The notes beneath the pieces were generated by a model. That model did not search any database. It was not told where the DNA came from and saw nothing but the letters and a program-made list of their open reading frames with translations. From assembly GCA_905478775.1 (NCBI GenBank), contig CAJQKB010000050.1, forward strand, positions 1 through 64,000: a stretch of DNA of 64,000 bases. The letters run 5' to 3'. Source of the stretch: an uncultured Opitutales bacterium (GTDB lineage Bacteria; Verrucomicrobiota; Verrucomicrobiia; Opitutales; Seribacteraceae). Both the position numbers and the translations under genes were made by a program. Shown in pieces: positions 769 to 25,627 of the stretch (the stretch's first letter is position 1; each line of letters starts with the position of its first letter).

Positions 769-3700
769 TTACTTAGGAGCTGCAATTTGAGCTCCCCCTT
801 TTGGAGTTCTGCGAATTGTTCCCGTAGGAGTCATAATAACGGGATCTTTAAAAATAGATTGCGGGCTGATATTTTGAATCACTTCACGAACCGGCGAACC
901 ACCACGGGATACGATACTGGCACTTACGAAAATTAATAAATTTCTTTTGGAATAACTCTCCGCAGAAGACTGAAATAGTCTTCCGATCAAAGGAATATTT
1001 CCAAGAACGGGAATTTTGTCGTTCACCGTCTTAACTTCTTCGCGAGTAAGTCCACCGATAATTACAGTGGCACCATCAAAGATGGTTACAGATGTATTCA
1101 CCTTACGGACCGAGAAAATTGGCATTAATATACCGGAGGGTTGTATGATCATTGGGGGAGTACCGGCTGCAGAAGTTCCGATCATTGCGGACGAACCACC
1201 GTACTCAATAAAACCGTCGAATTCGGTGACCTTCGGGCTTAACTCAAGGGCAATGGAATTATATTTCTCAATCCTCGGAGTAACATCCATCACGACTCCC
1301 ACTTCCCTGAAACCGGGCTGCTCATCATCGGGTGCAACGGTATCAAATTGAGGAACTGCACTCTGTATTTGAATTGCCTGAGCCAAAGCACCAGCACCTC
1401 CTTGCTGCGCTCCTCCTCCCCCTCCTCCTCCGCCCGGCAACGGAGCGGGTTCGTAACCTGTTGGGTAAATAAATTCCTGAGCAATGGTGATTTGTGCAGG
1501 CTGTCCGTCCATTACCGTAATTCTTGGTGCACTGAGTAAGTCAGTTCCCTGTTTACGCTGCAGGGCACTTATCAGTAGTTTTGCCTGGCTTCCTCCCAAA
1601 ATCATACTGCCCCCGCTTCCCCCCATGGTTAAGCTTTGACTACTTGCTTGCATGAGTGGTGATACTCCCTGACCTATCCCAATTTTACCCGGCAAATTAG
1701 GGGTTGGGTTGGGGATATTTAAACTCGCATCGCGATTGTCAGGAATACTAATTATGGTATCTCGAGAAGTTCCGCTGGCAGAGTGAGCTGTTGCCAATGT
1801 ACGAGTATTTCCAGTAAAACTTTTCCCAAAACTAATCACCGGTTGTCCATTTGAGTCAACCACTGGGTTTAACGTAGTGGGGTCTAGGACAAAGCTGGGG
1901 TCATCCCAACTGTATTGCCAATCGAAACTAATTTCATCCAGTGCACCTTCCTGAACTTCCAAAAATTTTGTTTCGATCTCTACCTGACGGCTCGAATCAG
2001 CATCCAGTCTTTCCAAAATTCGTTCAATGAGGTCCAATAAGCGACGTTCATGAGTAACGATCATTTGAAAGCCATCAAAGACAAACTTTTGCCCTTTTGT
2101 ATCATCAAATGGAATACCCGCTCCTTCTAAAAAAGCTTTTATTTTGGCTCCTGTGTCATCCGCTCCTCCTCCGCCGCCTCCGGGTGCAGGTGCGAAAGGA
2201 TCCGCTCCTCCTCCCCCCATTCCGGCACCGGCACCTCCGGTCATTCGCTGAATCGTTCCCTGCGTAACTTCATAAAATTCCGTTTCGAGAGAGCGACCGG
2301 TAAAAGTACCGCCCGATTTCGATACCACAATCGCATCATTTCGTATGTCATAGGTCCAACTTACCATTTCTGCTATAAATTGAATCATTTTGCCAAGCGC
2401 CATAGGATTGAGGGTGATAGTAACATTAGGAAATGGCTCATCCCCATTGGCTAGTGGAATGATATTTACTCCTTTTTTGGCTGGATCCGGCTCGGTAAGA
2501 TCAAAGGTTTTTGCTTGTCTTTGAAGTTCCTGCATCACTTCTGGTAGAGGGGATTCAAAAAATTGCACACCGGGAACTTGAATAATTTTTAATTTGTTCT
2601 CTAAATTGCTCGGACCCTCTTTTACTTTCTCGACTTCTTCAATTTGTCGGTCAAATACCTTCGGCCTTTCCCATTCACGTTCAATTTCTTCAAGCATTTC
2701 TGCACGAGTCTTTAAATATCCAAGATAACTTTCCTCGGCCCGCATTCTGGCAATGCGTTTAAGCATTTCCTTCGCTTCATAATTATCAGAAAATTGAGTT
2801 TCAATGGTTCGATATGTTTCGGTCGCTCCAGTAAGATCACCATTAATAAATTGTACTTTCGCACGCATCAATAATTCATTTAGCGCCTCCCTAGTATCCT
2901 TCCAATCCGCCGTAAACTCAGTAATATCTCTACGATAGGGGTTTGCCTTGTCTGCCGCAATTCGATCTTCCATGCGTTTTGCTTTTTCCAATTCGTTATC
3001 AAGTGCCTTCTCCCCTTCCGTCTGTTTTAGACCGGGTCTACCAAATGACATTGGATCTCCCTGTATATCGCGATCCTGGTAAAAACCGGTTCGAAATGCG
3101 TCTAAATACTGATTCGCTAAGTCCCAGTCTTTGTTGGATCGTGCATCTTCCGCTTTGTCTAAATTGATACGATTTTTTAACAACGCTGCATCCAATATTA
3201 ATGGCCAAGTACGCGTATTGGGCTCGAGGAAAAGCTTTATCTTAAGAAGGGATTTGTCCGCCTCTTCGTATTCTTTCTTTCGAATCATGCCCTTTGCTTT
3301 TGCCAAAAGTTCTTCAGCCAGTACTGCCTGTTCCTCCATTTTTTCTTTGGCTTTATCCATTTCGGCCTCGAAGTCTGTTTGTTGCTCTATTCCCAAAGTT
3401 TCAGACTCTGCCTTTCTGCGAGACTCCTCCACATCTTGATAGTCAACCACAAGCTCCTGCACCCGTCCTACCTTACCCTTGAGCATCGCCTCCCCCATGC
3501 GGTACCATGTGATTTGTTGTTTCGTTTTATAAATATCACTAATTAGTGCAATGCTTGAAACATTCGATGGCAATATCCCCAGGGCTTCATCAAGCTGATC
3601 TAGGGCTAAGTCATATTGGCCATCAGCACCGTCTTTGCGGGCTTTTTCTAACAATCTCTCGGCTCGACGCATCGATGTGCCCATTTTTGCCTTCTCGGAC

Positions 3701-4311
3701 TCCATTAGCCTTTCAAAGTCTGGCTTTGCGTCATCTTCGGGAAGGCCCGCCTTCGCACGAATCTCGGATAAATCTTTTTTGGCCTTTTCTAATTCTTCGA
3801 CTAATTTGCCTACTAGTGTTGCATCGGTTGAACCCTCTTTCTTAAGAACCAATTCTCTCTGTCTTTTTCTACCCTGTAATTCGACATCAATATTTTCTCG
3901 ATAGCGAGAAAGGAATTGACTGGCTAATGAATATTTTTTATCCGCCATCGCTTCCTGTGCCAATTGGTAATATAGTTTCGTTTCTGCCTTTCGGATTTGA
4001 TTGAGATAAAAACTATTTTCTTCGTTTTCGGTTATTTTCTCTAACACAACTCGAGCCATTTTCTGAGCCTCTTCCACTTTTCCCGCGCCAGCTAACTCAC
4101 GGATATTTTGAAGTACTCGAACTAAATTCGTTTCCGTTCCAATGTTAAATATTGGTTCCGAAACCACATTGGTTTTTATTTCGGGAGAAGTAGATTGTTG
4201 AGGTAAATTATTGAGCTGCGAATTTTTATCACTTATTTGGGCATGCAAGGAAGGGAAAGACAGGCATACACATGTCATTGTGATTAAACGAAAGTATAAG
4301 TTTAAATGCAT
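769..4311 (-). CDS. Amuc_1098-type pilus-like outer-membrane secretin
   Basis: A protein of about 1180 residues with a signal peptide ending in SLHA. A long alpha-helical, TPR/coiled-coil-like region spans roughly residues 40-570 and is rich in Lys, Glu and Ala. Two glycine-rich runs (near residues 700-730 and 980-1000) separate the later domains. The C-terminal third is secretin-like: it has VEIETKFLEVQEG and near the end the signature VIIGGLTREE followed by KIPVLGNIPLIGRLF. The domain order and length match the Amuc_1098 family, the outer-membrane ring of the verrucomicrobial pilus-like complex. I prefer the ATG at 4311 because it gives a compact signal peptide; an in-frame GTG at 4347 would add 12 hydrophobic residues. 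It is the last gene of a five-gene operon, 66-102 bp after the Amuc_1099-like gene. Its job is probably to form the outer-membrane channel through which the other components act. Confidence 0.9.
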   Translation of the reverse strand: MHLNLYFRLITMTCVCLSFPSLHAQISDKNSQLNNLPQQSTSPEIKTNVVSEPIFNIGTETNLVRVLQNIRELAGAGKVEEAQKMARVVLEKITENEENSFYLNQIRKAETKLYYQLAQEAMADKKYSLASQFLSRYRENIDVELQGRKRQRELVLKKEGSTDATLVGKLVEELEKAKKDLSEIRAKAGLPEDDAKPDFERLMESEKAKMGTSMRRAERLLEKARKDGADGQYDLALDQLDEALGILPSNVSSIALISDIYKTKQQITWYRMGEAMLKGKVGRVQELVVDYQDVEESRRKAESETLGIEQQTDFEAEMDKAKEKMEEQAVLAEELLAKAKGMIRKKEYEEADKSLLKIKLFLEPNTRTWPLILDAALLKNRINLDKAEDARSNKDWDLANQYLDAFRTGFYQDRDIQGDPMSFGRPGLKQTEGEKALDNELEKAKRMEDRIAADKANPYRRDITEFTADWKDTREALNELLMRAKVQFINGDLTGATETYRTIETQFSDNYEAKEMLKRIARMRAEESYLGYLKTRAEMLEEIEREWERPKVFDRQIEEVEKVKEGPSNLENKLKIIQVPGVQFFESPLPEVMQELQRQAKTFDLTEPDPAKKGVNIIPLANGDEPFPNVTITLNPMALGKMIQFIAEMVSWTYDIRNDAIVVSKSGGTFTGRSLETEFYEVTQGTIQRMTGGAGAGMGGGGADPFAPAPGGGGGGADDTGAKIKAFLEGAGIPFDDTKGQKFVFDGFQMIVTHERRLLDLIERILERLDADSSRQVEIETKFLEVQEGALDEISFDWQYSWDDPSFVLDPTTLNPVVDSNGQPVISFGKSFTGNTRTLATAHSASGTSRDTIISIPDNRDASLNIPNPTPNLPGKIGIGQGVSPLMQASSQSLTMGGSGGSMILGGSQAKLLISALQRKQGTDLLSAPRITVMDGQPAQITIAQEFIYPTGYEPAPLPGGGGGGGGAQQGGAGALAQAIQIQSAVPQFDTVAPDDEQPGFREVGVVMDVTPRIEKYNSIALELSPKVTEFDGFIEYGGSSAMIGTSAAGTPPMIIQPSGILMPIFSVRKVNTSVTIFDGATVIIGGLTREEVKTVNDKIPVLGNIPLIGRLFQSSAESYSKRNLLIFVSASIVSRGGSPVREVIQNISPQSIFKDPVIMTPTGTIRRTPKGGAQIAAPK

Positions 4312-4413
4312 GAAAATTAGGGGCAATAGAATAAAAATTCTTAACACACCATTCCATACATTGATGGAGTTGGGTCAATAAATAAAAATGGTAATTGTAA
4401 ACGAAATTAAATT

Positions 4414-5697
4414 TTAGAAATTAAGGGTTTTGACAGTAATTTTATCTGTCCCTGAAATCCTTTTTTCAATCTCGATATTTTTATTTTCTTTATCGATGCG
4501 AAGCAATTTATAACTCCTGTTCCCAAAATTAAATACTTTTTCAATTTCATTGGCGTCTAACTCGATCGAGCTCGGTACTTCACCCGCAATATCGAACTTT
4601 AAATTGATTTTATAATCACCTGTGTCCACTTTCTCCATCAAGCTATTAATCTCAAATGGTTTCCCTCCTTTTTTAAAATCACGAACCAAAGCACGACCCA
4701 CCATTTTAGCACCACCCGTTTTAGGGTCTTTTACCTGTTGAACGGTAAAAAATTCTACCTGTACCAGTTTTTCTTCATCGTCCGGACTTGTCTTAATTAA
4801 GGATGGCATACCCGGGCGGTAATTTTCATTTTCTTTGTAAGGAATATTCAATTCCAAACGATTTTTGACATATTTATCTGAGTTTGCGGAGACTTTAGTT
4901 TGAAAGTCCTCGAAATAAGGAGTCTTTCCTATCCAGCTCGCTAATTTTAATCGATAATGATTTTTTTCAAAGGAAACAACGGTCAAGCCAAACTCTTCTT
5001 CTTTTGCTTCTTCAGTGGGAGCTTCTGGTAGTGTTGTAGTTAATTCACCGTTTACCAAATAAATAATGGGCGGGGTAAACAGATCGTAAATGGAAGAGTT
5101 TCCTTCAGTCGCACTACTTGTCCAGCGACTCTTTTCTGTCCGATTTGAATCGTTTAAGAATTGGGACTTGGTTTGATAGACAGAAATTTTTGAATCACTT
5201 TCATCTATTGTATCGATCTCTTTATCCAAAACCAGCTTTTGTTCACCACGAATAAACTTAATATCTTTAAAACTAATATTTTTTACCCCTTTTTCGGTAT
5301 CTAAAGCGATCGGGTTTCTCGATTTGTCCCACCCAGCTGTTAAAATCGTACTACTCGGGTTTAATAATCTTCCTTTGTAAATTTCTTGAGATTTCATCTG
5401 AATGGTAACCCGGCTTTTTTTCGAAAATATTACTTTTTTTACACTGAATTTTTCGATTTCACCCGACCCGATATTATGAATTTCAATACTGTCTCCGGGT
5501 ACCAGTTGAGTCTCTTTTAACAGGACTAATACATCTTCTCCGCCAACCGAGTCGATAGAAAAGGAATGAGCGACTGAAGGTTTATTTTTCTTTTCTGAAT
5601 CACTGGGCTCCAAAAAGGAGATAACACCGACAATTCCAAGAGTCAGTAGTACCAGTACAATGGCGATTTTGTCGTAATGTGAATTAACGAATTTCAC
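4414..5697 (-). CDS. Amuc_1099-type pilus-like system protein
   Basis: A 427-residue bitopic protein. A short basic N-terminus precedes one membrane helix (about residues 10-30); the rest is beta-rich and periplasmic. Two similar segments can be seen, one near residues 50-90 (VPGDSIEIHN) and one at the C-terminus (FNFGNRSYKLLRI), both resembling the small beta domains of PilP-type alignment proteins. That comparison is inference; membership of the Amuc_1099 family follows from topology, size and position between 1100-like and 1098-like genes. The start codon is GTG and the gene overlaps the end of the upstream gene by 14 bp, which points to translational coupling. It probably links the inner-membrane proteins to the secretin. 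Confidence 0.82.
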   Translation of the reverse strand: MKFVNSHYDKIAIVLVLLTLGIVGVISFLEPSDSEKKNKPSVAHSFSIDSVGGEDVLVLLKETQLVPGDSIEIHNIGSGEIEKFSVKKVIFSKKSRVTIQMKSQEIYKGRLLNPSSTILTAGWDKSRNPIALDTEKGVKNISFKDIKFIRGEQKLVLDKEIDTIDESDSKISVYQTKSQFLNDSNRTEKSRWTSSATEGNSSIYDLFTPPIIYLVNGELTTTLPEAPTEEAKEEEFGLTVVSFEKNHYRLKLASWIGKTPYFEDFQTKVSANSDKYVKNRLELNIPYKENENYRPGMPSLIKTSPDDEEKLVQVEFFTVQQVKDPKTGGAKMVGRALVRDFKKGGKPFEINSLMEKVDTGDYKINLKFDIAGEVPSSIELDANEIEKVFNFGNRSYKLLRIDKENKNIEIEKRISGTDKITVKTLNF

Positions 5698-6796
5698 GAT
5701 TTAAAAAGATTTTATCTAATCTCGAACCTATTTTTGAATTTCCTGATAATTCTAAGAACTTCTGTAGTGGTTCTTCATTCAGTTGTACTGTCTTTAAAGA
5801 CCTAACCAAGAAAGATTCAAAGTCCCGCTCAATTTCATAAACATACTCAATTAAAAATGTAAATGTTGATTCTACATTCTGAACAATCGGGAGCGGTGTG
5901 GCGGAATTGCCCGTTTCTGAAGGAAACGGACTTGGCGCAGATTGAGGAGTGAAGGAGTTACCTAATTCAACCGATCGACTAACAATTAAGTCTTTTACAA
6001 GAAAGGGAGGCCTTAACTGATTAATAAAACTTCGTGCATGGGATGTGTGACCTTTAAACTCTATCACAAATGCAAAAGATTTTATTCCACCAGTAAAGCG
6101 AACCAATTTATCGGTAAAATTCGGGCTCGTTAATTGATCGCCAGCAATATGCTGGCTGTCTTCTTCACCCACTGGCTCACGAGATACCGTGAGGAGATTA
6201 ATTCTATGCTCCCCATTGGAGGATTCAGTTAAATATTCGATTAAGGTGGAAATAATCTTACTTTGAATGCCGAGTAATTTTGCCTCGTTTTTTGAAAAAC
6301 TTGGCCAAAATCCGTCATAGGAAGACAGCCCAAATCCGTATTTCTTTTCTTCGGCCTGGTTGGCCACACCAAACGGATTGCTTCCAGTTGATTCATTTTG
6401 ATTACAATCAATATTATTTTTTTTACACATGCTGCGTAATCGGGAATAAAGCCTTGTCAAATCTGCGTTGATTGACTCCGGACTTTTATTTTTCCAGTTG
6501 GTAAAAATATTATCACTTGGGTTTAGAATGTTATTCCAAAAACGATGCTGATCTTTTTCTAGAGTCGATAAAGTTAACAAATCATCTGTCGCTAAGCTTG
6601 CATCTTCAGAAAGTCCTTCGTATAGCAAAAGTTCTTCGTTTAGACTACCCGCCTTTTGTTCTTCACCTTTTATAGACGAAATAATTTCTTCAAGATTTTC
6701 TCCTGAATTACAGGATATAAATTGTAGTGAAGTAAACAAAACCAAAAACAAAAACAGCAAGGAAAAGAAAAACTTATTGTGTTTTAAAAAATTCAT
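5684..6796 (-). CDS. Amuc_1100-type pilus-like protein
   Basis: A 370-residue protein with an N-terminal hydrophobic helix (about residues 9-28) ending in FISCNSG. It continues with a helical stretch and a C-terminal alpha/beta region like the periplasmic part of PilN/PilO proteins. In Akkermansia the homologue (317 residues from memory) is an abundant outer-surface or periplasmic protein and was reported to act on host TLR2; no such role can be assumed here. The Cys at about residue 29 sits where a lipoprotein Cys would, but the preceding Phe-Ile-Ser is a poor lipobox, so anchoring by the uncleaved helix is equally likely. It starts 10 bp after the PilM/PilN-like gene and overlaps the next gene by 14 bp. 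Family assignment rests on synteny and architecture more than on sharp motifs. Confidence 0.82.
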   Translation of the reverse strand: MNFLKHNKFFFSLLFLFLVLFTSLQFISCNSGENLEEIISSIKGEEQKAGSLNEELLLYEGLSEDASLATDDLLTLSTLEKDQHRFWNNILNPSDNIFTNWKNKSPESINADLTRLYSRLRSMCKKNNIDCNQNESTGSNPFGVANQAEEKKYGFGLSSYDGFWPSFSKNEAKLLGIQSKIISTLIEYLTESSNGEHRINLLTVSREPVGEEDSQHIAGDQLTSPNFTDKLVRFTGGIKSFAFVIEFKGHTSHARSFINQLRPPFLVKDLIVSRSVELGNSFTPQSAPSPFPSETGNSATPLPIVQNVESTFTFLIEYVYEIERDFESFLVRSLKTVQLNEEPLQKFLELSGNSKIGSRLDKIFLNREIR

Positions 6797-6806
6797 GGAT
6801 TACAGC

Positions 6807-8570
6807 TTAAGATTTCGGAATAAATTCATATTTAAAATGAGTAAAATACCGTTTAAATAAATCTCCTTTTCCTTCGATTGAAAAAGTTTTTTTGGCAACC
6901 TTTTCAATAAAGGGAAGTGCTTCCAAATATTGAGTCAATGCTTCTTGTTTTACGCTATTTAATTCAATTAAGTGATTTCTCTTCTCGTTCGCGTCGGAGT
7001 CCTTAAAGGTTTCATCGATCCGAACTAAATATCTGCCAGAAAGTATTATTTTGTATCTCTTTTTTCCTTTCAAGAATTGAGTACCTATAATATTTTCTCG
7101 GCTTCTTGCGGAGACTTCTTGAAACCTTAATTCATCAAACCAAGCGTCCGATACATCAGCATGGTCCAATGATCCCTGCAACTGGTTAAGGAAATCTTGT
7201 ATCACCCAACAGGAAAAACTTTTTTCTCTGAATATTTGATTTCGTTCGAAAACCAATTGATTAAGTTTATCAGTAAACAAGAACTTTTCCTGAAGTAATT
7301 CCTGGTCGGCAATATTTGATTTTAGGTCTCTTGTGCCCTGCTGTAATGAACTGAGTTCTTTTTCTAGCTCATCCTCCAGAGATGATTTATTCAAAATGCT
7401 CGGTATTGGCAGTAGTGAGAAAATAAATGCGGCGGTTAATAGCAGTGGTATTTTCTTTTTAAAGGATAAGTGCGTCAGCTTATTTGCAGGGAGTAAATTA
7501 AGAGGACGCTTTAAGGTATTCCCTTCATTACTATTCAAAATTGCAGTCGCAAGCCCAACTGGTTCGCCAATCATGTAAGGAAGAAGGGCGCGCATTTCTT
7601 GGCTTATTCCATCCTCTAACAGTAAGCTCTTCAGGGGGTCAAAATAATCAATATCTAGGCTTTGGCTTTGGCTAAGGTATTCGGGTAAGTTGTTGAGCAG
7701 TGCACCTCTCCCGGCAAGAAACATCCGATTTGGAGACTTTCCTTTTTTAAGCCTTTTGTAGGTTACAATTGATCGGGTAATTTCTTGACTTGCTCGATTT
7801 AAAAACTGCTGCGAGCAATTTTCTAGTACTTGGACGCTTGGGTCTTCCGGTGAAAAAGCAACCTGTCCTGAAAAATAACTTTTTTTGATTTCCTCTGCTT
7901 TCTCAAATAATATCCCTAAACTGTCCGATATATTTTGTGTGAGAGCGTTTCCCCCTATTGCTATACTTCGGATAAGAAAGCCAGTGGGATTAATAAAAAG
8001 TAAATTCGTAGATTTTGCACCAATGTTAACAACAAGTGTCTCTTGTTGCTCTAATCCCACGCCCGATGAAATTAGTGCATTGTAGTCCAGAATCGGTGCA
8101 GGTGTAATTTGCAGAGGGTTTAATCCAATCTCAACCACTTTTTCACAAAATGTTTCCGCAATTTCTGGCTTCACCGCAAAGGCAAGAATTTCCTGCTCTA
8201 CCCCATCATCATCAATTACCTGATAGTCCCATATTAATTCGGCCAATGGGAATGGCATTTTTTGGGACAGTTCAAACGCTACTATTTTTTTCTGTTTCTC
8301 TTCGTTTACATGGGGAACACGTATTGTTTTGTTAAGAAGCAGGCTTCCGGGAAATATAAAACGTGCATCCCCTTTAAGTTTTTCGTTTTTACAGAGTAAT
8401 TCCAATCCGGCAATCAATGAATCTAGCCAGATTTGGTCATTACTGTAGTCATAGTGTAGAGTTTGAAGAGCAACCTGCTTGAGTTTTAATTTACCACCTT
8501 CTGAAGAAAACACACTCGCGGACACATGAGAAATACCGCAATTTATAATTACTTCTCTCTTCTCGCTCAT
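6807..8570 (-). CDS. Amuc_1101-type PilM-like protein fused to a PilN-like domain
   Basis: A 587-residue protein. Residues 1 to about 350 form an actin-like PilM fold: it starts with EVIINCGISHVSASVF and has later nucleotide-site-like segments such as TLVVNIGAKSTNLLFI and MFLAGRGALLNNLPEYL. At residue 357 a new module begins with LNLLPANK, the short motif that opens PilN proteins. A membrane helix (about 374-392), a coiled coil and a periplasmic alpha/beta domain follow. One polypeptide therefore covers the cytoplasmic PilM role and the inner-membrane PilN role, which are usually separate genes. It lies 24 bp after the Amuc_1102-like gene and 10 bp before the Amuc_1100-like gene. It probably nucleates the inner-membrane platform. 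Confidence 0.88.
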   Translation of the reverse strand: MSEKREVIINCGISHVSASVFSSEGGKLKLKQVALQTLHYDYSNDQIWLDSLIAGLELLCKNEKLKGDARFIFPGSLLLNKTIRVPHVNEEKQKKIVAFELSQKMPFPLAELIWDYQVIDDDGVEQEILAFAVKPEIAETFCEKVVEIGLNPLQITPAPILDYNALISSGVGLEQQETLVVNIGAKSTNLLFINPTGFLIRSIAIGGNALTQNISDSLGILFEKAEEIKKSYFSGQVAFSPEDPSVQVLENCSQQFLNRASQEITRSIVTYKRLKKGKSPNRMFLAGRGALLNNLPEYLSQSQSLDIDYFDPLKSLLLEDGISQEMRALLPYMIGEPVGLATAILNSNEGNTLKRPLNLLPANKLTHLSFKKKIPLLLTAAFIFSLLPIPSILNKSSLEDELEKELSSLQQGTRDLKSNIADQELLQEKFLFTDKLNQLVFERNQIFREKSFSCWVIQDFLNQLQGSLDHADVSDAWFDELRFQEVSARSRENIIGTQFLKGKKRYKIILSGRYLVRIDETFKDSDANEKRNHLIELNSVKQEALTQYLEALPFIEKVAKKTFSIEGKGDLFKRYFTHFKYEFIPKS

Positions 8571-8594
8571 AAAAAGAAATGGCAGGAAATAAAA

Positions 8595-9272
8595 TTAATA
8601 TCCCGATCCCTTAATTCTCTTCACCGGTCCCACTCCTTCCAAGTAATTAGAACTGACAATGTGTGCGGGTAATAAAATTCCTTCATTTTTAGACGCATTT
8701 GATTGGGCCTGTTGTTTAAACTTTTGAAGTATTGTTTCCTCCCTGTATTTATCAAAAGAAATGGAGTCCGAAATTTCTAGTGGTATTCCATCGTATATTA
8801 TTTCTACCACATACCCGACTGCATTAATATAGGTTGATAAAAAGCCATCCCTTTCGGCAATCGCGGCAGGAAATAAAAAGTGGGCATATTTTGTATTTCT
8901 ATCAAATTTAACAGTCATATATTCCACTTCCGCACTGTAGTATTGATAAAATTCTATATCGGGCAATTTCAGGGTGCGCAGATTTTTCTTTTGATATTCA
9001 TTAAGGAAACATAACGAAAGTCGAACTTTTATGTTATTGATAAAATCAATATTGATTAGGTCCTCCTTGCTCGACGGTTTTCTAGATTTAAATTTTTCCA
9101 GCAATGGATGGGTAACAAATACAAAGGGAACGGAGGCTTTGACCCACTGATCTGATTCTTTCGTAATGGTTATCTTCCCTCCCAGTTTAACAAATTGATC
9201 CGGATTTGCCTTCAAGTTTCCAATAAAAAGTACGGATACAAGAAAAAATAATGGAGTGGGTAAGAATTTCAT
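8595..9272 (-). CDS. Amuc_1102-type pilus-like exported protein
   Basis: A protein of about 225 residues with a clear signal peptide (MKFLPTPLFFLVSVLF, cleavage probably after the Lys-Ala near residue 22). The mature part is mostly beta-strand, with repeated Val/Phe/Tyr alternation and no cysteines in recognisable motifs. The first gene of an operon leading to PilM/PilN-like, 1100-like, 1099-like and secretin genes matches the Amuc_1102 position. The homologue in Akkermansia is described as an immunoglobulin-like pilus-associated protein; structure similarity here is inference. The frame extends upstream to 9335, but that start would add 21 polar residues before the signal peptide, so I chose ATG at 9272. 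Its promoter must lie in the 80 bp shared with the divergent Nudix gene. Confidence 0.8.
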   Translation of the reverse strand: MKFLPTPLFFLVSVLFIGNLKANPDQFVKLGGKITITKESDQWVKASVPFVFVTHPLLEKFKSRKPSSKEDLINIDFINNIKVRLSLCFLNEYQKKNLRTLKLPDIEFYQYYSAEVEYMTVKFDRNTKYAHFLFPAAIAERDGFLSTYINAVGYVVEIIYDGIPLEISDSISFDKYREETILQKFKQQAQSNASKNEGILLPAHIVSSNYLEGVGPVKRIKGSGY

Positions 9273-9352
9273 GGGACTGAGCTTTTGTGGTTTTGTATTA
9301 TGGTAGATTGCCATCTTTCCAAATCTTGTGTACATATAACAAGCATAAACTA

Positions 9353-19848: not shown

Positions 19849-20967
19849 ATGAACACAGAAAATCTTATAAAGAAAGTAACGATAATATTAATACTAAAGG
19901 TATTAGCTACTGTTGTAATGGGAAACGAAAAGAAATTCACTCTTGAAGAAATTAATCCTTTTGCCCTACAGGGGGTAGATTCGAAGGTGTATACGAATAA
20001 AGATCTAATTGGTGAACGCGGAACTTTACTGATTTTTTTATCGAATCATTGTAGGATATCCCAAATATTTCAAAAGAAATTAGTTGAATGTAGCGAAGAA
20101 TGGAAGTCAGGAGGTATTAAAATACTTGTATTTTCCCCTAATTTTGAAAATGCAATTCTACCAGATGAATTAGCGTATTCAGACTCAGGAGATTCTTTTC
20201 AAGAAATGAAAGAAAGAGCTTTAAGTGAGAGTTATAATTTCCCCTATATTTATGACGGAAAAGAACAAATAGTAACCAAAAGCTTAGAGGTGAAAATTAC
20301 CCCCAGTGCATACCTTTATGATAGTTTGGGAAAAATTATATATTCAGGCAGATTGGGGAATCACGAAAAACCAGAGGAGATAAAAAACGGAGAACTTAAT
20401 CAAAATATAAAAAGATTAATAAACGGGAAGAAAGTAGAATTTAACAGAACTAGGAACTTTGGTACTGCAGTAAAATTTAAAAAGGATCTTTATTTAGCCG
20501 AAAACGTAAAAAGAAGGTATTCGGGTGAAACAATCCAAATAAATTATGCCGATGAAAGAAGACTAAATTTCTTTATTAGACAAAAAACAAATTATCCTAA
20601 GTTTTTCTACATATGGAGTTTACATGAAAACCAAAAACAAAATCGAGAAAATTTAATAACTATTTCTTCCAATTATAAAATATTTCGGAAAAGAGGTCTG
20701 AAAGTCTATACAATTTGTATTTGTAAGGAGGAGGAAAGAGAAGATGCACTTGAAATACTGAAGCAAGCTCAATTATCATCTTATAATTATTATTCTTTGG
20801 GCAAAGAGATTTCAGAAATAAGTAAATTAAGGTCATCAGAAGGAGAAAAAACAACACCGTTTTGTCGATTATTAACTGGAGATAATAATTTTAGATTTGG
20901 AACTAATGGTTTAATAGAAGAAAAAATTCTAACTGTTTCTTTTTTACAAACCTTAAATGCTAATTAA
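19849..20967 (+). CDS. exported redoxin (AhpC/TSA-like) domain protein
   Basis: A 372-residue protein with a signal peptide or signal anchor (about residues 8-25). It has a thioredoxin-fold domain of the AhpC/TSA or redoxin type (about residues 35-200). The segments GTLLIFLSNHCRISQIF and KITPSAYLYDSLGKIIYSGR are the expected nucleophile region and the cis-Pro strand. Only one Cys (C68) is present at the nucleophile position; there is no CxxC and no resolving Cys in the motif. The domain ends in RNFGTAVKF; related verrucomicrobial and planctomycetal redoxins usually have a Cys there. A second region (about 225-372) looks like another, degenerate thioredoxin fold. A function in envelope redox chemistry is likely but not provable. 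The 3' end overlaps comEC by 15 bp. Confidence 0.72.
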   Translation: MNTENLIKKVTIILILKVLATVVMGNEKKFTLEEINPFALQGVDSKVYTNKDLIGERGTLLIFLSNHCRISQIFQKKLVECSEEWKSGGIKILVFSPNFENAILPDELAYSDSGDSFQEMKERALSESYNFPYIYDGKEQIVTKSLEVKITPSAYLYDSLGKIIYSGRLGNHEKPEEIKNGELNQNIKRLINGKKVEFNRTRNFGTAVKFKKDLYLAENVKRRYSGETIQINYADERRLNFFIRQKTNYPKFFYIWSLHENQKQNRENLITISSNYKIFRKRGLKVYTICICKEEEREDALEILKQAQLSSYNYYSLGKEISEISKLRSSEGEKTTPFCRLLTGDNNFRFGTNGLIEEKILTVSFLQTLNAN

Positions 20968-22452
20968 AGTATAGAATAAAAACAAAACAGTCGGAAAAAA
21001 GAACTGGATAATTATTTTAGTGCTATTTTTTTTAATTAAATTAGCGAGTAAAAGAATAGCAATTATATAAAAAAAATGAATTGAGTTATCTAGCTCGCTT
21101 TTACCTTCTATTTTAAAATAGGTTAAGTCAGATACTGTTAAAATGTTTAGAAGATAATCTAGTATATTGTAAAGTCCTGAAAAAAGGATTGAAAAATAAT
21201 CAATTTCAATAAATATTGATAATGATAACATTAAGAAAATAAATACTATAAATATAAATGCAATAGGAATTGCTATTATATTTATTATTATCGAACCTGG
21301 TACTATAATGTTAAAATAATCATAAACAAGCAACATACTTCCACAAAAAGCAGAATAACTAGTAAGTAGTGAATTTATAAAAAAATTACTAAAAGTATAT
21401 TTATATTTTTCTATATACTTTTTTATTTGTATATTAAAAACAATAATAGATGTGACGACGGTGTAAGATAATTGAAATCCAATTTCCATTACTGAGGATG
21501 GGTCATTGATAAGAATCAGTAAGCAAGAGGTAGACAATGAGCATAAAGCGCTTTTCCTCTTAAAAAAAACGATAGATAATTGCCAAATATTTATCATCAT
21601 ACATGCCCGTAATGCCGATGGAGGATAATTAACCATATCTAAATAAACAAATAATATTATAGCGATTACTATTTCAGATATGTACCGGTTATATGTTATT
21701 AAAGAAATCAAAAATTTTATAATTAAATATATAAACCCTATATGAAGACCACTTACTGCAAAAAGATGTAATGTTCCGCTATTCTGAAATGTTAATTTCT
21801 GTGAATTAGACAGCATGTTTTTATTGCCCAAAAGAATCGCGTTAAGGAATGCGTTTAATTGCTCTTCATTTTTTGCAGAAATAAGCAGTGTTTTTTCTAT
21901 TAAAAAGTTTAATTGAAGTAGAGTATCCAGCCTCTTGGCTTTCGTCATATTTAAAATTTTACAATATTTAAGAGTAGTAAGATATTGATTATTGGTAAAC
22001 TTGCTTGAAAGAACTCCCTTTACCTTGATTTTTTTCTCCGTCAAATGCGCGATTTCATTATTTTCAAATCTGCATAAAATATGTTGATTTACCAAATCTT
22101 CATTTACTTTTGGTGCGGTTTTTACGCTTGCAACATAATAATTGTAGTTTAAATTGTTAACTTTTCTTTTTATTTTAATATCTAAAACCACTTCCCTTTT
22201 TGGGGTATCTTCAGGCATTTGTAATATTTTAAAATCATAGTTTTCAAGTAAAATGATAAATAGCAGTATTTCGAATATTCCGAGAAATAATATTTTATTT
22301 TTCTTAAGTAAAAAATAACTATAAATAAAAATCTTTAGAAAAATATAAAATAGGAAGATATTTACTATTAAGGCATTTTCAAAAATTTGATTTTCAAAAA
22401 GTAGAATAAAAACCAAATACGGAATTAATATACTTACAACAGGGTTTCTCAT
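20953..22452 (-). CDS. ComEC/Rec2-family competence channel protein
   Basis: A 499-residue multispanning membrane protein. The N-terminus has about three helices and then a short beta-rich insert (about residues 85-165, with ILCRFENNE and IKVKGVLSS) that corresponds to the DUF4131/OB-like region. The hallmark GTLHLFAVSGLHIGF (about residue 229) and ALRACMMINIW identify the competence domain. ComEC transports single-stranded DNA into the cytoplasm during natural transformation. The C-terminal metallo-beta-lactamase-like domain found in longer homologues (about 750 residues) is absent; the protein ends after the last helices. A strongly AT-biased codon choice (Ile, Asn, Lys, Phe) is apparent. 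It converges on and overlaps the redoxin gene and is divergent from the rhomboid gene. Confidence 0.88.
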   Translation of the reverse strand: MRNPVVSILIPYLVFILLFENQIFENALIVNIFLFYIFLKIFIYSYFLLKKNKILFLGIFEILLFIILLENYDFKILQMPEDTPKREVVLDIKIKRKVNNLNYNYYVASVKTAPKVNEDLVNQHILCRFENNEIAHLTEKKIKVKGVLSSKFTNNQYLTTLKYCKILNMTKAKRLDTLLQLNFLIEKTLLISAKNEEQLNAFLNAILLGNKNMLSNSQKLTFQNSGTLHLFAVSGLHIGFIYLIIKFLISLITYNRYISEIVIAIILFVYLDMVNYPPSALRACMMINIWQLSIVFFKRKSALCSLSTSCLLILINDPSSVMEIGFQLSYTVVTSIIVFNIQIKKYIEKYKYTFSNFFINSLLTSYSAFCGSMLLVYDYFNIIVPGSIIINIIAIPIAFIFIVFIFLMLSLSIFIEIDYFSILFSGLYNILDYLLNILTVSDLTYFKIEGKSELDNSIHFFYIIAILLLANLIKKNSTKIIIQFFFPTVLFLFYTLISI

Positions 22453-22516: not shown

Positions 22517-23386
22517 ATGTTATACGACCGACCATACATGCAGAAACCCTTTTCTACCCAAGACAAATCCGTTGTAGAAATTCTCATAGTCGTTCTCATA
22601 GTTTGTTTTCTCGTTAATTCAATTGTTGGTATTTTCTCTTCTACCATAAATAATTTTATTTTTGAAAATCTTTATTTTTCTGCAGGAGCAATTTCTAGTT
22701 TTTTGCTTTGGACCCTATTCACTTATTCTTTTTTTCATGATGGTCCGTTTCATTTAATATTTAATTTATTGGGTCTTTATTTTATTGGGAGAGCGGTTGA
22801 GTCTGACATTGGAAAAACAAATTTCATTTATTTATTAATTATTGGCTCTGCTCTTGGTGCTTTCTTTTGGTTAACATTTAATAATAGTGGGCAATTTTTA
22901 TTGGGCTCCTCTTCAATGGTTATGGCTTGTTTATCAATATATTGTTTAAAACAACCGGATAATCCTATTACTCTTCTTTTGTTTTTTGTTTTACCTTGTA
23001 AGGTAAAGCCTCGATGGATCTTGATTGGAGTTTTAAGTATTGAAGTATATGGGTTTCTATTCAACGAAATTTCATCCTCTTCAGATATTGCTCATTCTGC
23101 TCACCTAGGAGGACTTTTAGCCGGTGGATTGGTTTTTTACTTCCTTCGACAAGGCAAAAACTTCCCTTCATTTGTTCTCGATACTTCGAAATCTAAGTTT
23201 TCATCCAAAAAGAGTGGTTCTTCCACGGTAGATAATAGCGATTTTAAAATCAATTTTTCTAGTACATCAGAATTACAGAAAGAGGTTGATCGCATATTAG
23301 ATAAAATTAATGAATCCGGTTTCGGTTCTTTAACCTCCAAGGAAAAGGTAACTCTGGATAAAGCAAAAAGTTTGCTTAGAAATTAA
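22517..23386 (+). CDS. rhomboid-family intramembrane serine protease
   Basis: A 289-residue membrane protein with about six helices (roughly residues 20-225). The catalytic serine lies in LLGSSSMVMA, where the residue after it is Ser instead of the usual Gly, and the catalytic His in HSAHLGGLLAGG. The loop motif FHLIFNLLGLYFIGRAVE is the typical first signature with the conserved His and Asn. After the last helix come a Lys/Ser-rich linker and a C-terminal motif, EVDRILDKINESGFGSLT, seen in many bacterial rhomboids of this type. Rhomboids cleave transmembrane substrates; the substrate here is unknown. It is 21 bp upstream of the Prc-type protease gene and probably co-transcribed with it. Confidence 0.92.
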   Translation: MLYDRPYMQKPFSTQDKSVVEILIVVLIVCFLVNSIVGIFSSTINNFIFENLYFSAGAISSFLLWTLFTYSFFHDGPFHLIFNLLGLYFIGRAVESDIGKTNFIYLLIIGSALGAFFWLTFNNSGQFLLGSSSMVMACLSIYCLKQPDNPITLLLFFVLPCKVKPRWILIGVLSIEVYGFLFNEISSSSDIAHSAHLGGLLAGGLVFYFLRQGKNFPSFVLDTSKSKFSSKKSGSSTVDNSDFKINFSSTSELQKEVDRILDKINESGFGSLTSKEKVTLDKAKSLLRN

Positions 23387-23407: not shown

Positions 23408-25627
23408 ATGTATACCTATAATTTGTCTATTAAATTACTAGTGCCATATCTGATTTTGGTTTCATTTAATCTTGTTTCTCTAAAGCAAGTAAGGGCGAGT
23501 GATATACAACCCACTTCTTTAATGCAGCAAGAAACCAAATGGTTAGTTCAAGCCCTCCAGCAAGCTCATTTTAATAAAGTATCTATAAAAAAACTTAATT
23601 CAACAGATTTCGTTACGAGCTACTTAAATAAGTTAGATAAATCAAAATTATATTTCACTCAAACTGATGTAACAGAATTTATCAATCGGTATTCCCCAAC
23701 TTTAGTTACGTTTTTCGAGCAAGGAAATCTGTTTCCTGGATTTGAAATCTATAATTTTTATAAAACTAAATCCATCAAGAGATTAGACTGGGTGATGGAA
23801 TTTTTAGAGTCTGACTTTAGCTTTGATTCAAATAATTCATATAAATTTGATCGGGAAGATGCGGATTGGGAAACTAACAACGAGGGATTAGATGGATTAT
23901 GGAAGAGACTAATTGAATTTGAAATCTTAGGTGAAGTTTTGTCCTCCATTGAAACCAATTCAACCAATACAGAATTTAGTAAAAGTGAAATGGAAAAACT
24001 TTCTTCTGATTCTAAGGGTAAAGTTCGTAAAAGATACGAGCGTTGGAAAAAAAGTATACTTGAATTTGAGTCTACGGATGTGCAAGAATTATATTTAAGC
24101 ACTTTAACTCAAATGTTTGACCCCCACACTACTTTTATGAACATTAAAGAAAAAGAAAAGTTTAATCAAACTATGAACAACGAGCTTGTTGGGATTGGGG
24201 CAGTTTTATCGGATATTGATGGTTATTGTACTATTACTGAATTATTACCAGGTGGACCTGCAGAATCTTCAAGAGAACTTAAATCGAAAGATCAGATTAT
24301 TAAAGTGGCACAAGCGGAAGGTGAATTTGTTAATGTTGTAGATATGAAATTATCCAAGATTGTCGAGTTGATCAAAGGTCCCAAAGACACAGTTGTGAGA
24401 CTTGAGATAAAACCTGTCAACGATCCGGCATCGACCAAGATAGTAAGAATTATTAGAGATAAAATTAAACTCACATCAAATTTAGCATCTGCATCAATTC
24501 ATAAAGTGAAATTCGAAAAGGTTGATCGAAAAATTGGTGTTATTGAATTACGGACATTTTATGGCTCTAGTGGGAGTGGTCCAAAAGCAACAGATGATGT
24601 AGAAGAATTACTAGAAAAGTTAAAAGAGGAAGAAACAGAAGGAATTATACTTGATTTAAGAAGAAATGGTGGCGGTTATCTAAGTGAAGCGGTTAACTTA
24701 GCCGGTTTATTTATTTCGAGGGGGCCCGTTGTTCAGGTTAAGAGTACCGACGGAAAAATTCGCAAGAAATTTGATTTTAACCCTAAATTAGCTTGGGACG
24801 GTCCTCTTATAGTTTTGGTTTCTAGATACAGTGCTTCCGCCTCTGAAATCGTTGCAGGAGCTCTACAGAATCACAAGAGAGCAATTATTGTTGGTGACAA
24901 AACAACCCACGGGAAAGGAACGGTTCAGTCTCTCATACAAATGAATCTACCATTCAACTTTAACGCGTCTTCTGGTAAAAAAAGTGCGGCGAAAATAACT
25001 ATTCAAAAATATTATTTACCATCCGGTAAGAGTACTCAAATTCAAGGTGTAGAAAGCGATATTTCGATGCCAACAATCAACACCTATTTGCCAATCGGAG
25101 AATCGGATTTGGATAATGCCTTGCCTTGCGACAGTATTGCTCCAGTCAATTTCAGGCGACCCGCAAGTGAATTTGTTTATGATTTAGATGACATCCAAAA
25201 TCTAAAAGAGAAAAGTTTAGGAAGACAGCAATTGTTGCCCGAGTTTGTTTACCTTAATAAAGATGTAAATTGGTATAAAAATAAGAGAGAGGAAACTACT
25301 CTATCCTTAAATCTCCAAAACCGTAGGGATCAGAAAATCAAAAACCAAAAATTTAGTGATTCAATGTCGGATGATTTTGAAATTCTTTCAAAAAGTGCTT
25401 TTGTCAGAAAGAATATAAATCTTAACATTGTTGATATTCAGAATACAAAATCACGAGAGGTCAGGGGCGAGGACAATGATGATAGTAACGCAACCAATCC
25501 CTACAAATCTCCTTCAAACTTCGATATAAGATTACACGAAACATGTCGGGTTATGTCTGACTGGGTTGGTATGATAGAATCAAGAAACTTAACGCACCAA
25601 AAACCGGAATTAAAGGATGAAATCTAG
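23408..25627 (+). CDS. carboxy-terminal processing (tail-specific) protease, S41 family
   Basis: A 739-residue periplasmic protease of the Prc type. After a signal peptide (about residues 1-30) comes the N-terminal helical domain of tail-specific proteases (about 30-220, including DPHTTFMNIKE). A PDZ domain (about 240-330, GIGAVLSDIDGY and LLPGGPAESS) and the S41 catalytic core follow. The catalytic Ser is about residue 477 in SASASEIVAGAL and the Lys about 503 in HGKGTVQS. GIILDLRRNGGGYLSEAV is the conserved core strand. The C-terminal 190 residues match the DUF3340-like extension of E. coli Prc in position. It degrades or trims exported proteins from their C-terminus. Ends 3 bp before the convergent prmC. 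Confidence 0.93.
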   Translation: MYTYNLSIKLLVPYLILVSFNLVSLKQVRASDIQPTSLMQQETKWLVQALQQAHFNKVSIKKLNSTDFVTSYLNKLDKSKLYFTQTDVTEFINRYSPTLVTFFEQGNLFPGFEIYNFYKTKSIKRLDWVMEFLESDFSFDSNNSYKFDREDADWETNNEGLDGLWKRLIEFEILGEVLSSIETNSTNTEFSKSEMEKLSSDSKGKVRKRYERWKKSILEFESTDVQELYLSTLTQMFDPHTTFMNIKEKEKFNQTMNNELVGIGAVLSDIDGYCTITELLPGGPAESSRELKSKDQIIKVAQAEGEFVNVVDMKLSKIVELIKGPKDTVVRLEIKPVNDPASTKIVRIIRDKIKLTSNLASASIHKVKFEKVDRKIGVIELRTFYGSSGSGPKATDDVEELLEKLKEEETEGIILDLRRNGGGYLSEAVNLAGLFISRGPVVQVKSTDGKIRKKFDFNPKLAWDGPLIVLVSRYSASASEIVAGALQNHKRAIIVGDKTTHGKGTVQSLIQMNLPFNFNASSGKKSAAKITIQKYYLPSGKSTQIQGVESDISMPTINTYLPIGESDLDNALPCDSIAPVNFRRPASEFVYDLDDIQNLKEKSLGRQQLLPEFVYLNKDVNWYKNKREETTLSLNLQNRRDQKIKNQKFSDSMSDDFEILSKSAFVRKNINLNIVDIQNTKSREVRGEDNDDSNATNPYKSPSNFDIRLHETCRVMSDWVGMIESRNLTHQKPELKDEI

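Follow-up and report, generated by a model that had tools for sequence, protein, structure and literature searches.

The DNA analysed here (the window) comprises positions 1–64,000 of contig CAJQKB010000050.1 in assembly GCA_905478775.1, from an uncultured Opitutales bacterium of the phylum Verrucomicrobiota. On its minus strand, at positions 769–9272, lie five genes that we read, with a probability of about 0.7, as the portion of a retractable type IV pilus-like machine that spans the cell envelope and as a divergent relative of the Amuc_1098–1102 locus (MUL2) of Akkermansia muciniphila. Four observations support this directly: the homology of the five genes, a PilM–PilN fusion recognized by profile, the presence of motor-type genes in the same genome, and coaE–rho as a neighbour common to both gene clusters. 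By inference, the two clusters build a single machine, which would assemble a filament and, in the source bacterium, capture surfaces or polymers.

The five-gene locus and its proteins

The open reading frame (ORF) list of the window confirms the five co-directional ORFs described in an earlier note on this DNA, all on the minus strand within 769–9335. From the 769 end, they encode an Amuc_1098-like outer-membrane secretin of the PilQ type with a long N-terminal region (769–4347; 1192 amino acids (aa), exact start uncertain), an Amuc_1099-like protein (4414–5697; 427 aa) with an N-terminal helix, an inserted SH3/Sm-like domain at about residues 44–176 and C-terminal beta domains, an Amuc_1100-like protein in the PilO position (5684–6796; 370 aa), an Amuc_1101-like putative PilM–PilN fusion (6807–8570; 587 aa) and an Amuc_1102-like protein (8595–9272) with a signal peptide recognized by eye and a beta-sandwich model. 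In the same direction, the ORFs are spaced by 66 nucleotides, a 14-nucleotide overlap, 10 nucleotides and 24 nucleotides. The longest frame of the 1102-like gene starts at 9335 and has 246 aa. Met22 of this frame, at base 9272 (the end given in the earlier note), is invariant across the 12 rows of alignment A5, and 8 of these rows begin with it; 9272 is therefore most likely the better start.

The secretin and the PilM-type protein are clear relatives of Amuc_1098 and Amuc_1101. The secretin passes the Pfam Secretin cut-off, which we took as the mark of a PilQ-type secretin; it scored 379 bits against NF042912 (Amuc_1098_fam; cut-off 750) and 90.8 bits against the PilQ model TIGR02515 (cut-off 284.35), and it matches GspD models too. 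The 1101-like protein passes the Pfam PilM_2 cut-off and scored 236.6 bits against NF045709 (Amuc_1101_fam; cut-off 650). The profile of the 1101 family (alignment A4, 27 rows) matched PilM of the Myxococcus pilus (3jc8_Ma; E 2.3e-60) at positions 4–349 and PilN (3jc8_Na; E 2.2e-8) at positions 354–515, and by eye a hydrophobic stretch at about 370–390 of the window protein lies between the actin-like PilM domain and the PilN-like domain. On these alignments, the 1101-like protein looks like a PilM–PilN fusion. The 1100-like protein reached 17.9 bits (E 0.0016) against NF038287 (Amuc_1100_fam; cut-off 180). Given that all three matching NCBIfam models stayed below their equivalog cut-offs, we regard the five proteins as divergent relatives of the Akkermansia set.

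The 1099-like and 1102-like proteins had no match among NCBIfam and Pfam models. The earlier note had made its reading depend on profile searches placing these two proteins and the 1100-like protein in the Amuc families, and they were so placed, the 1099-like protein least firmly. In iterated hidden Markov model (HMM) searches seeded from Akkermansia over 1577 ORFs, a small database of chosen loci that makes the E-values flattering, the profiles reached L027 (1099, 4.8e-6), L038 (1102, 7.1e-6) and L036 (1100, 1.1e-7) before they held rows of the window's clade; by round 3 they matched the window genes at 1.7e-44, 3.6e-36 and 3.4e-81, respectively. Seeded from the window, the 1100 iteration attained Akkermansia, and those of 1099 and 1102 stopped at L086. 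When clade-disjoint alignments were compared with hhalign, the true partner was best in all four rows, with probabilities of 91.6% for 1099 (first 35 residues only), 98.6% for 1100, 100% for 1101 and 95.5% for 1102; the 12 wrong pairings did not exceed 17.7%. The AlphaFold model of the 1102-like protein (predicted local distance difference test score 83.9) aligned with Amuc_1102 (MUL2A; 7dsz_C) at Z 14.0 over 157 residues, with a root-mean-square deviation (rmsd) of 2.6 and the next entry at Z 6.9, and so has the 7DSZ fold, with the proviso that the alignment behind the model contained Akkermansia rows. Matches to the Protein Data Bank (PDB) from alignments with Akkermansia rows are little proof about the window proteins. 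With Foldseek by itself, neither the 1102-like nor the 1099-like model yielded a match at E ≤ 0.001. The identities of the 1100-like and 1102-like proteins are thus supported by clade-disjoint profile comparison, that of the latter by fold as well, and the identity of the 1099-like protein is the weakest of the five.

The inserted domain of the 1099-like protein has no aligned counterpart in Akkermansia or L086 (alignment A1). Its model resembles SH3/Sm barrels, with structure-comparison rows of Z up to 7.5 (48 residues, rmsd 1.9) and lower values for the C-terminal part; the match may reflect a common arrangement. The TSP3-type motif PF18884 was found in 6 of 28 rows of the 1099 family, with more visible by eye, and is absent from the window protein. 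At the columns where rows of other families carry this motif (about 200–275 of A1), the Opitutales rows carry DLFTPPIIY or similar. By position, the 1100-like and 1099-like genes would fit PilO and PilP; no PilP/GspC entry was among the 50 structure matches listed for the 1099-like model.

Divergently upstream of the locus lie a NUDIX gene (Pfam) and genes that read by eye as pyruvate dehydrogenase components; the NUDIX neighbour is present at 11 of 12 related Opitutales loci and at L086. The guanine–cytosine (GC) content of the window ranges from 28.7 to 43.4% in 4-kb steps. The genome (2.78 Mb in 185 contigs, 95.17% complete) is AT-rich, yet its reduction is not strong. A ComEC-type competence gene (20953–22452, minus strand; PF03772, E 2e-41, 142.6 bits against a cut-off of 23), about 11.6 kb from the locus, sits in the lowest-GC stretch of the window, adjoined by a rhomboid-domain gene (22517–23386) and a tail-specific protease gene (23408–25627).

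Motor genes and the coaE–rho neighbourhood

The earlier note stated correctly that ATPases, platform protein and pilins are absent from the locus; its conclusion from this on what the complex works with is not borne out, as candidates lie elsewhere in the genome. The genome search that it proposed detected PF00437 matches at five places. Contig C17 carries, at L019 4415–11796, Pfam-named coaE and rho followed by two PilB/GspE-type ATPases (PilB1 and PilB2) and a PilC/GspF-type protein, and contig C167 encodes PilT (376.6 bits, over the cut-off of 319.1). PilB/GspE and PilC/GspF models match the C17 proteins strongly, below their cut-offs, with scores that do not separate PilB and PilC from GspE and GspF: the GspE and PilB models score PilB2 equally, and PilC is likewise matched by GspF. 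Class III pilin N-termini gave 11 matches at E ≤ 0.1, 10 of them over the cut-off and some of them pseudopilins of the type II secretion system (T2SS); candidates lie on contigs C17, C27, C75, C79 and C137. A separate T2SS lies on C17: profiles identify a secretin of its own together with E, F, G and K, further pilin N-termini are present, and L, M and C are assigned by position alone, with no Pfam match for them. The genome thus has a GspD–E–F set apart from the locus.

Of 15 representatives from outside Opitutales, 11 have coaE (at a distance of up to about 4 kb) and rho downstream of 1098. G013 is a twelfth, with rho some 10 kb farther away, and the remaining three (G125, G078 and G121) show neither gene. 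In Opitutales, it is the motor genes that coaE and rho accompany: the order coaE–rho–pilB1–(pilT)–pilB2–pilC was found in 12 of 14 other Opitutales regions, with pilT inside the row in 10 of the 14; the exceptions are G102, with no rho match in the row, and G119, with neither coaE nor rho. A polA-like 5'–3' exonuclease gene follows 1098 in L086, an Opitutales locus, and stands between 1098 and coaE in G206, G162 and G056. Because coaE–rho adjoins each half in different lineages, it ties the envelope and motor clusters together, and the pattern agrees with a single ancestral cluster that was split at more than one place. Chance rearrangements next to housekeeping genes may also explain it.

Direct physical linkage of 1098 to pilB–pilC was considered and rejected: a pilB orthologue follows 1098 in none of 16 regions (the 15 non-Opitutales representatives and G045), among which G217 was covered over 3 kb (L080). 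In G186, a GspE-like ATPase is encoded about 12 kb downstream of 1098.

Outside Opitutales, a PilB2 orthologue was present in all 16 chosen genomes with 1098 (592–683 bits in 15, a split frame in G121), and PilT exceeded its cut-off in the same 16. Among the eight genomes of families f12 and f14, which lack 1098, neither a PilB2 orthologue nor PilT over its cut-off was detected, and five show a weak PilB-type match of 212–238 bits. The 550-bit line used for PilB2 orthologues is too strict, as a pilB–pilT–pilB row in G428 holds a PilB of 475 bits. In Opitutales, PilT matched in 52 of 70 genomes (51 over the cut-off); since most of the larger genomes carry several copies, PilT did not serve as a marker in this order. 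By BLAST, a T2SS GspD query showed no association with the 1101 gene (40 of 46 genomes with it, 20 of 24 without; p 0.73). Profile and BLAST searches differed, in that 15 Opitutales genomes with a strong 1098 match (at least 180 bits) lacked a PilM match. A BLAST table of 1101 against PilB2 in the 70 Opitutales (41/3/5/21; p 2.5e-10) was withdrawn, being inflated by missed divergent loci.

Some further features of these genomes are recorded here. In the source genome, a third secretin (688 aa; L020 7796–11427, contig C95) is encoded apart from the T2SS and the five-gene locus, and the gene before it has weak MscS-channel matches and a long C-terminal extension. On contig C137 (L024 5693–9587), a pilin-type gene has two flagellin-like ORFs in its vicinity; these match Flagellin_N/C, although one falls just short of the Pfam cut-off. 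Genome G283, which has no 1098 match, contains one TAG in each of two pilB ORFs on contig C65.

Distribution in Verrucomicrobiota

In support of the earlier note's reading, the locus family is spread widely in the phylum. At E ≤ 1e-20, Amuc_1098_fam matched 364 of 387 genomes of the phylum (41 of the 387 over the cut-off) and none of 14 controls. Some of these matches lie near the line, and at E ≤ 1e-15 two of the 14 controls match too, so the Amuc_1098 family shades into other secretins. Amuc_1100_fam, at E ≤ 0.1, was found in all 17 genomes picked because they scored high for 1098, with 5 of them exceeding the cut-off, and, below the cut-off, in 3 of 14 controls.

All five genes, on one strand and in the order 1102–1101–1100–1099–1098, are present in 25 of 33 loci, the window included; every other locus was chosen for a PilM or secretin match. 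The eight incomplete loci comprise three at contig edges (L029, L034 and L088), two lone second copies (L076 and L079), two without a recognized 1102 (L081 and L087) and one broken locus (L094). The lone copies are second Amuc_1098-family secretins encoded off the five-gene locus in G113 (L076 9147–11669) and G251 (L079 3259–5784). In G121 (L094), the locus seems broken, with transposase-like ORFs, seen by eye, between two 1099 pieces, and in-frame stops occur in 1098, PilB2 and PilT of this genome.

No 1098 match was found in 23 genomes; among the 20 of these that were listed are the two f14 genomes and every listed f12 genome (six). Family f12 would correspond to Methylacidiphilales, from which the locus is reported missing in the accessible text of PMC13174399.

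Among 18 named loci, 12 come from metagenome-assembled genomes or single cells of Verrucomicrobiota, mostly Opitutia or Opitutales, and the other six are distant. PilM identity is 56–97% in 11 of the Verrucomicrobiota loci and 37% in one, and 20–25% in the six distant ones. Judging from the isolate names, several of the nearest named relatives look marine, and the source bacterium is probably marine.

Function, alternatives and meaning

Compared with Amuc_1098–1102 of A. muciniphila (PilQ and MUL2), the window holds homologues of all five genes with their order and strand unchanged, and its 1102-like model aligns to 7DSZ. It differs in falling below the three equivalog cut-offs, in the extra domain and missing TSP3-type motif of its 1099-like protein, in a longer secretin frame (1192 aa) and in that coaE–rho sits with pilB–pilC in the source genome instead of behind 1098. 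With the type IVa pilus (PilMNOPQ–PilB–PilT–PilC; Myxococcus 3jc8) it shares the PilM and PilN profile matches, the secretin, motor-type proteins and class III pilin N-termini; in contrast to that system, PilM and PilN are fused, the motors lie in a separate cluster and a PilP counterpart was not recognized. We know of no counterpart of 1102 in the type IVa pilus. The T2SS (GspL–M–C–D–E–F) belongs to the same superfamily, and the source genome has a separate one on C17.

In the machine that we favour, the 1098-like secretin would be the outer-membrane gate, and the 1101-like protein would connect the PilM ring in the cytoplasm with a PilN-type domain in the periplasm. The 1100-like and 1099-like proteins, at the PilO and PilP positions, would link the inner membrane to the gate, with the 1102-like beta-sandwich protein as a putative secreted accessory subunit. 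Motor and platform would be supplied by the coaE–rho–pilB–pilB–pilC cluster and the PilT gene, and the motor would push a filament of class III pilins out through the secretin gate and pull it back.

A number of observations weigh against this machine, several of them from Opitutales. Full sets of five genes are absent from all 16 divergent Opitutales regions, 12 of which hold the secretin alone and the others partial sets (four genes in L135; three in L134, L137 and L139), and our confidence was lowered for this reason. Contig ends cut L132 and L138 near the secretin, and fast-evolving copies may have escaped the profiles. The 12 regions with a lone secretin include those of all nine genomes of 0.8–1.1 Mb (L125–L133), in which 1099–1102 went unrecognized beside the 1098-like secretin. 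G390 has a weak PilM-like match on a separate contig from its secretin. Co-occurrence within the 70 Opitutales is modest: of the 61 genomes that match 1098 or 1101, lone-secretin genomes included, 42 hold a PilB2 orthologue, compared with 2 of the 9 that match neither (42/19/2/7; p 0.011, uncorrected for ancestry). The orthologue is kept in 7 of the 20 listed genomes without 1098, including G108 and G146, which are 98–99% complete. More than 0.5 Mb separates the locus from PilB2 in nine genomes in which a single contig carries both (G113, G024, G251, G078, G186, G121, G128, G018 and G045). To these are added the missed equivalog cut-offs of all three matching models (Amuc_1098_fam, Amuc_1100_fam and Amuc_1101_fam) and the result of Opitutales-only profiles, which matched neither Amuc_1100 nor Amuc_1102 in the PDB.

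Just upstream of the secretin in L126, ORFs of 453 aa and 154 aa may, by eye, be divergent PilM and PilN/O; the 453-aa ORF has no Pfam match.

Several of these points would suit a 1098–1102 complex that works without a pilus motor and passively, either as a gate for polymers or as a scaffold for adhesion, with PilB–PilC serving another machine. The locus and the motor genes are unlinked, their co-occurrence in Opitutales is modest, two Akkermansiaceae-like genomes have an extra lone 1098 (L076 and L079), and very small genomes keep a 1098-like secretin with unrecognized neighbours. We consider such a complex unlikely, since coaE–rho bridges both clusters and since the PilB2 orthologue and PilT are absent from the eight tested f12 and f14 genomes, whose families lack 1098. 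A PilM domain also implies coupling to a cytoplasmic motor, as is established for type IV pili. An even less probable option is a T2SS-type secretion system, in which the locus would be a second GspL–M–C–D set exporting enzymes instead of building a pilus. A PilM–PilN fusion has the architecture of GspL, the secretin matches GspD models, PilB2 scores equally for GspE and PilB, and PilC matches GspF; the separate T2SS set on C17, the match of the 1101 profile to both PilM and PilN of the Myxococcus pilus and the PilT-type ATPase in all 16 chosen non-Opitutales genomes with 1098 argue otherwise. DNA uptake is possible, if doubtful: a type IV pilus-like apparatus would draw DNA into the periplasm and ComEC would pass it inward, in keeping with the ComEC-type gene at 20953–22452 of the same window (PF03772, E 2e-41) and the presence of PilT. 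That gene is about 11.6 kb from the locus, however, and the Akkermansia relatives point to glycan attachment and uptake, as far as the accessible text of PMC13174399 goes.

In the same text, structure prediction and synteny connect the Akkermansiaceae locus with attachment to fucose-rich glycans, marine members are shown to take up fluorescent fucoidan, and mucin uptake by A. muciniphila is stated to depend on mul genes (PMC13174399). It also already presents the locus, as MUL2, and the argument for an ancestral, non-gut role for Akkermansiaceae and Verrucomicrobiales (PMC13174399). The 1098–1102 cluster with surface Amuc_1100 was described before (PMC5332112), and there are reports of type IV pilus genes from the Opitutales family UBA9783, in reduced genomes (PMC12306168), and from four Verrucomicrobia associated with rice (PMC7251102); the accessible parts of the latter two do not name the 1098–1102 locus. 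In our searches of the open-licence PMC literature, we found no description of the locus in Opitutales or of the coaE–rho–pilB link, and the coaE–rho-to-pilB link was not met in the accessible text of PMC13174399, PMC5332112, PMC4960237, PMC11790493, PMC10688800, PMC12306168, PMC10540074 or PMC7251102. The locus is thus mostly known in kind; apparently new are an Opitutales member with a variant 1099, the PilM–PilN fusion by profile and the coaE–rho bridge. The work behind the mul-gene observation on mucin uptake is probably that of Davey et al. 2023.

The observation made in the earlier note is confirmed and its interpretation partly supported. Its argument from a compact, core-type context is weak, with a genome of 2.78 Mb and with nine Opitutales of 0.8–1.1 Mb whose secretins lack recognized 1099–1102. 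Tentatively, and at well below even odds, the ancestor of Verrucomicrobiota may have had one supercluster, 1102–1101–1100–1099–1098–(polA-like exonuclease)–coaE–rho–pilB–pilT–pilB–pilC, with the break falling behind rho in most lineages and ahead of coaE in Opitutales; this supercluster would have encoded a retractable type IV machine of the phylum with a PilM–PilN fusion that reeled in polymers and was later turned to mucin by Akkermansia.

Studies of Amuc_1100 address how it affects the host, and its machine is treated as a trait of gut bacteria. The five-gene set of an Opitutales bacterium and the coaE–rho link to PilB–PilT–PilC name candidate motor genes in Akkermansia, namely, in G113, two tandem pilB genes near 1.906 Mb and two pilT genes near 0.203 Mb. 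With these genes named, whether Amuc_1100 belongs to a retracting machine becomes directly testable.

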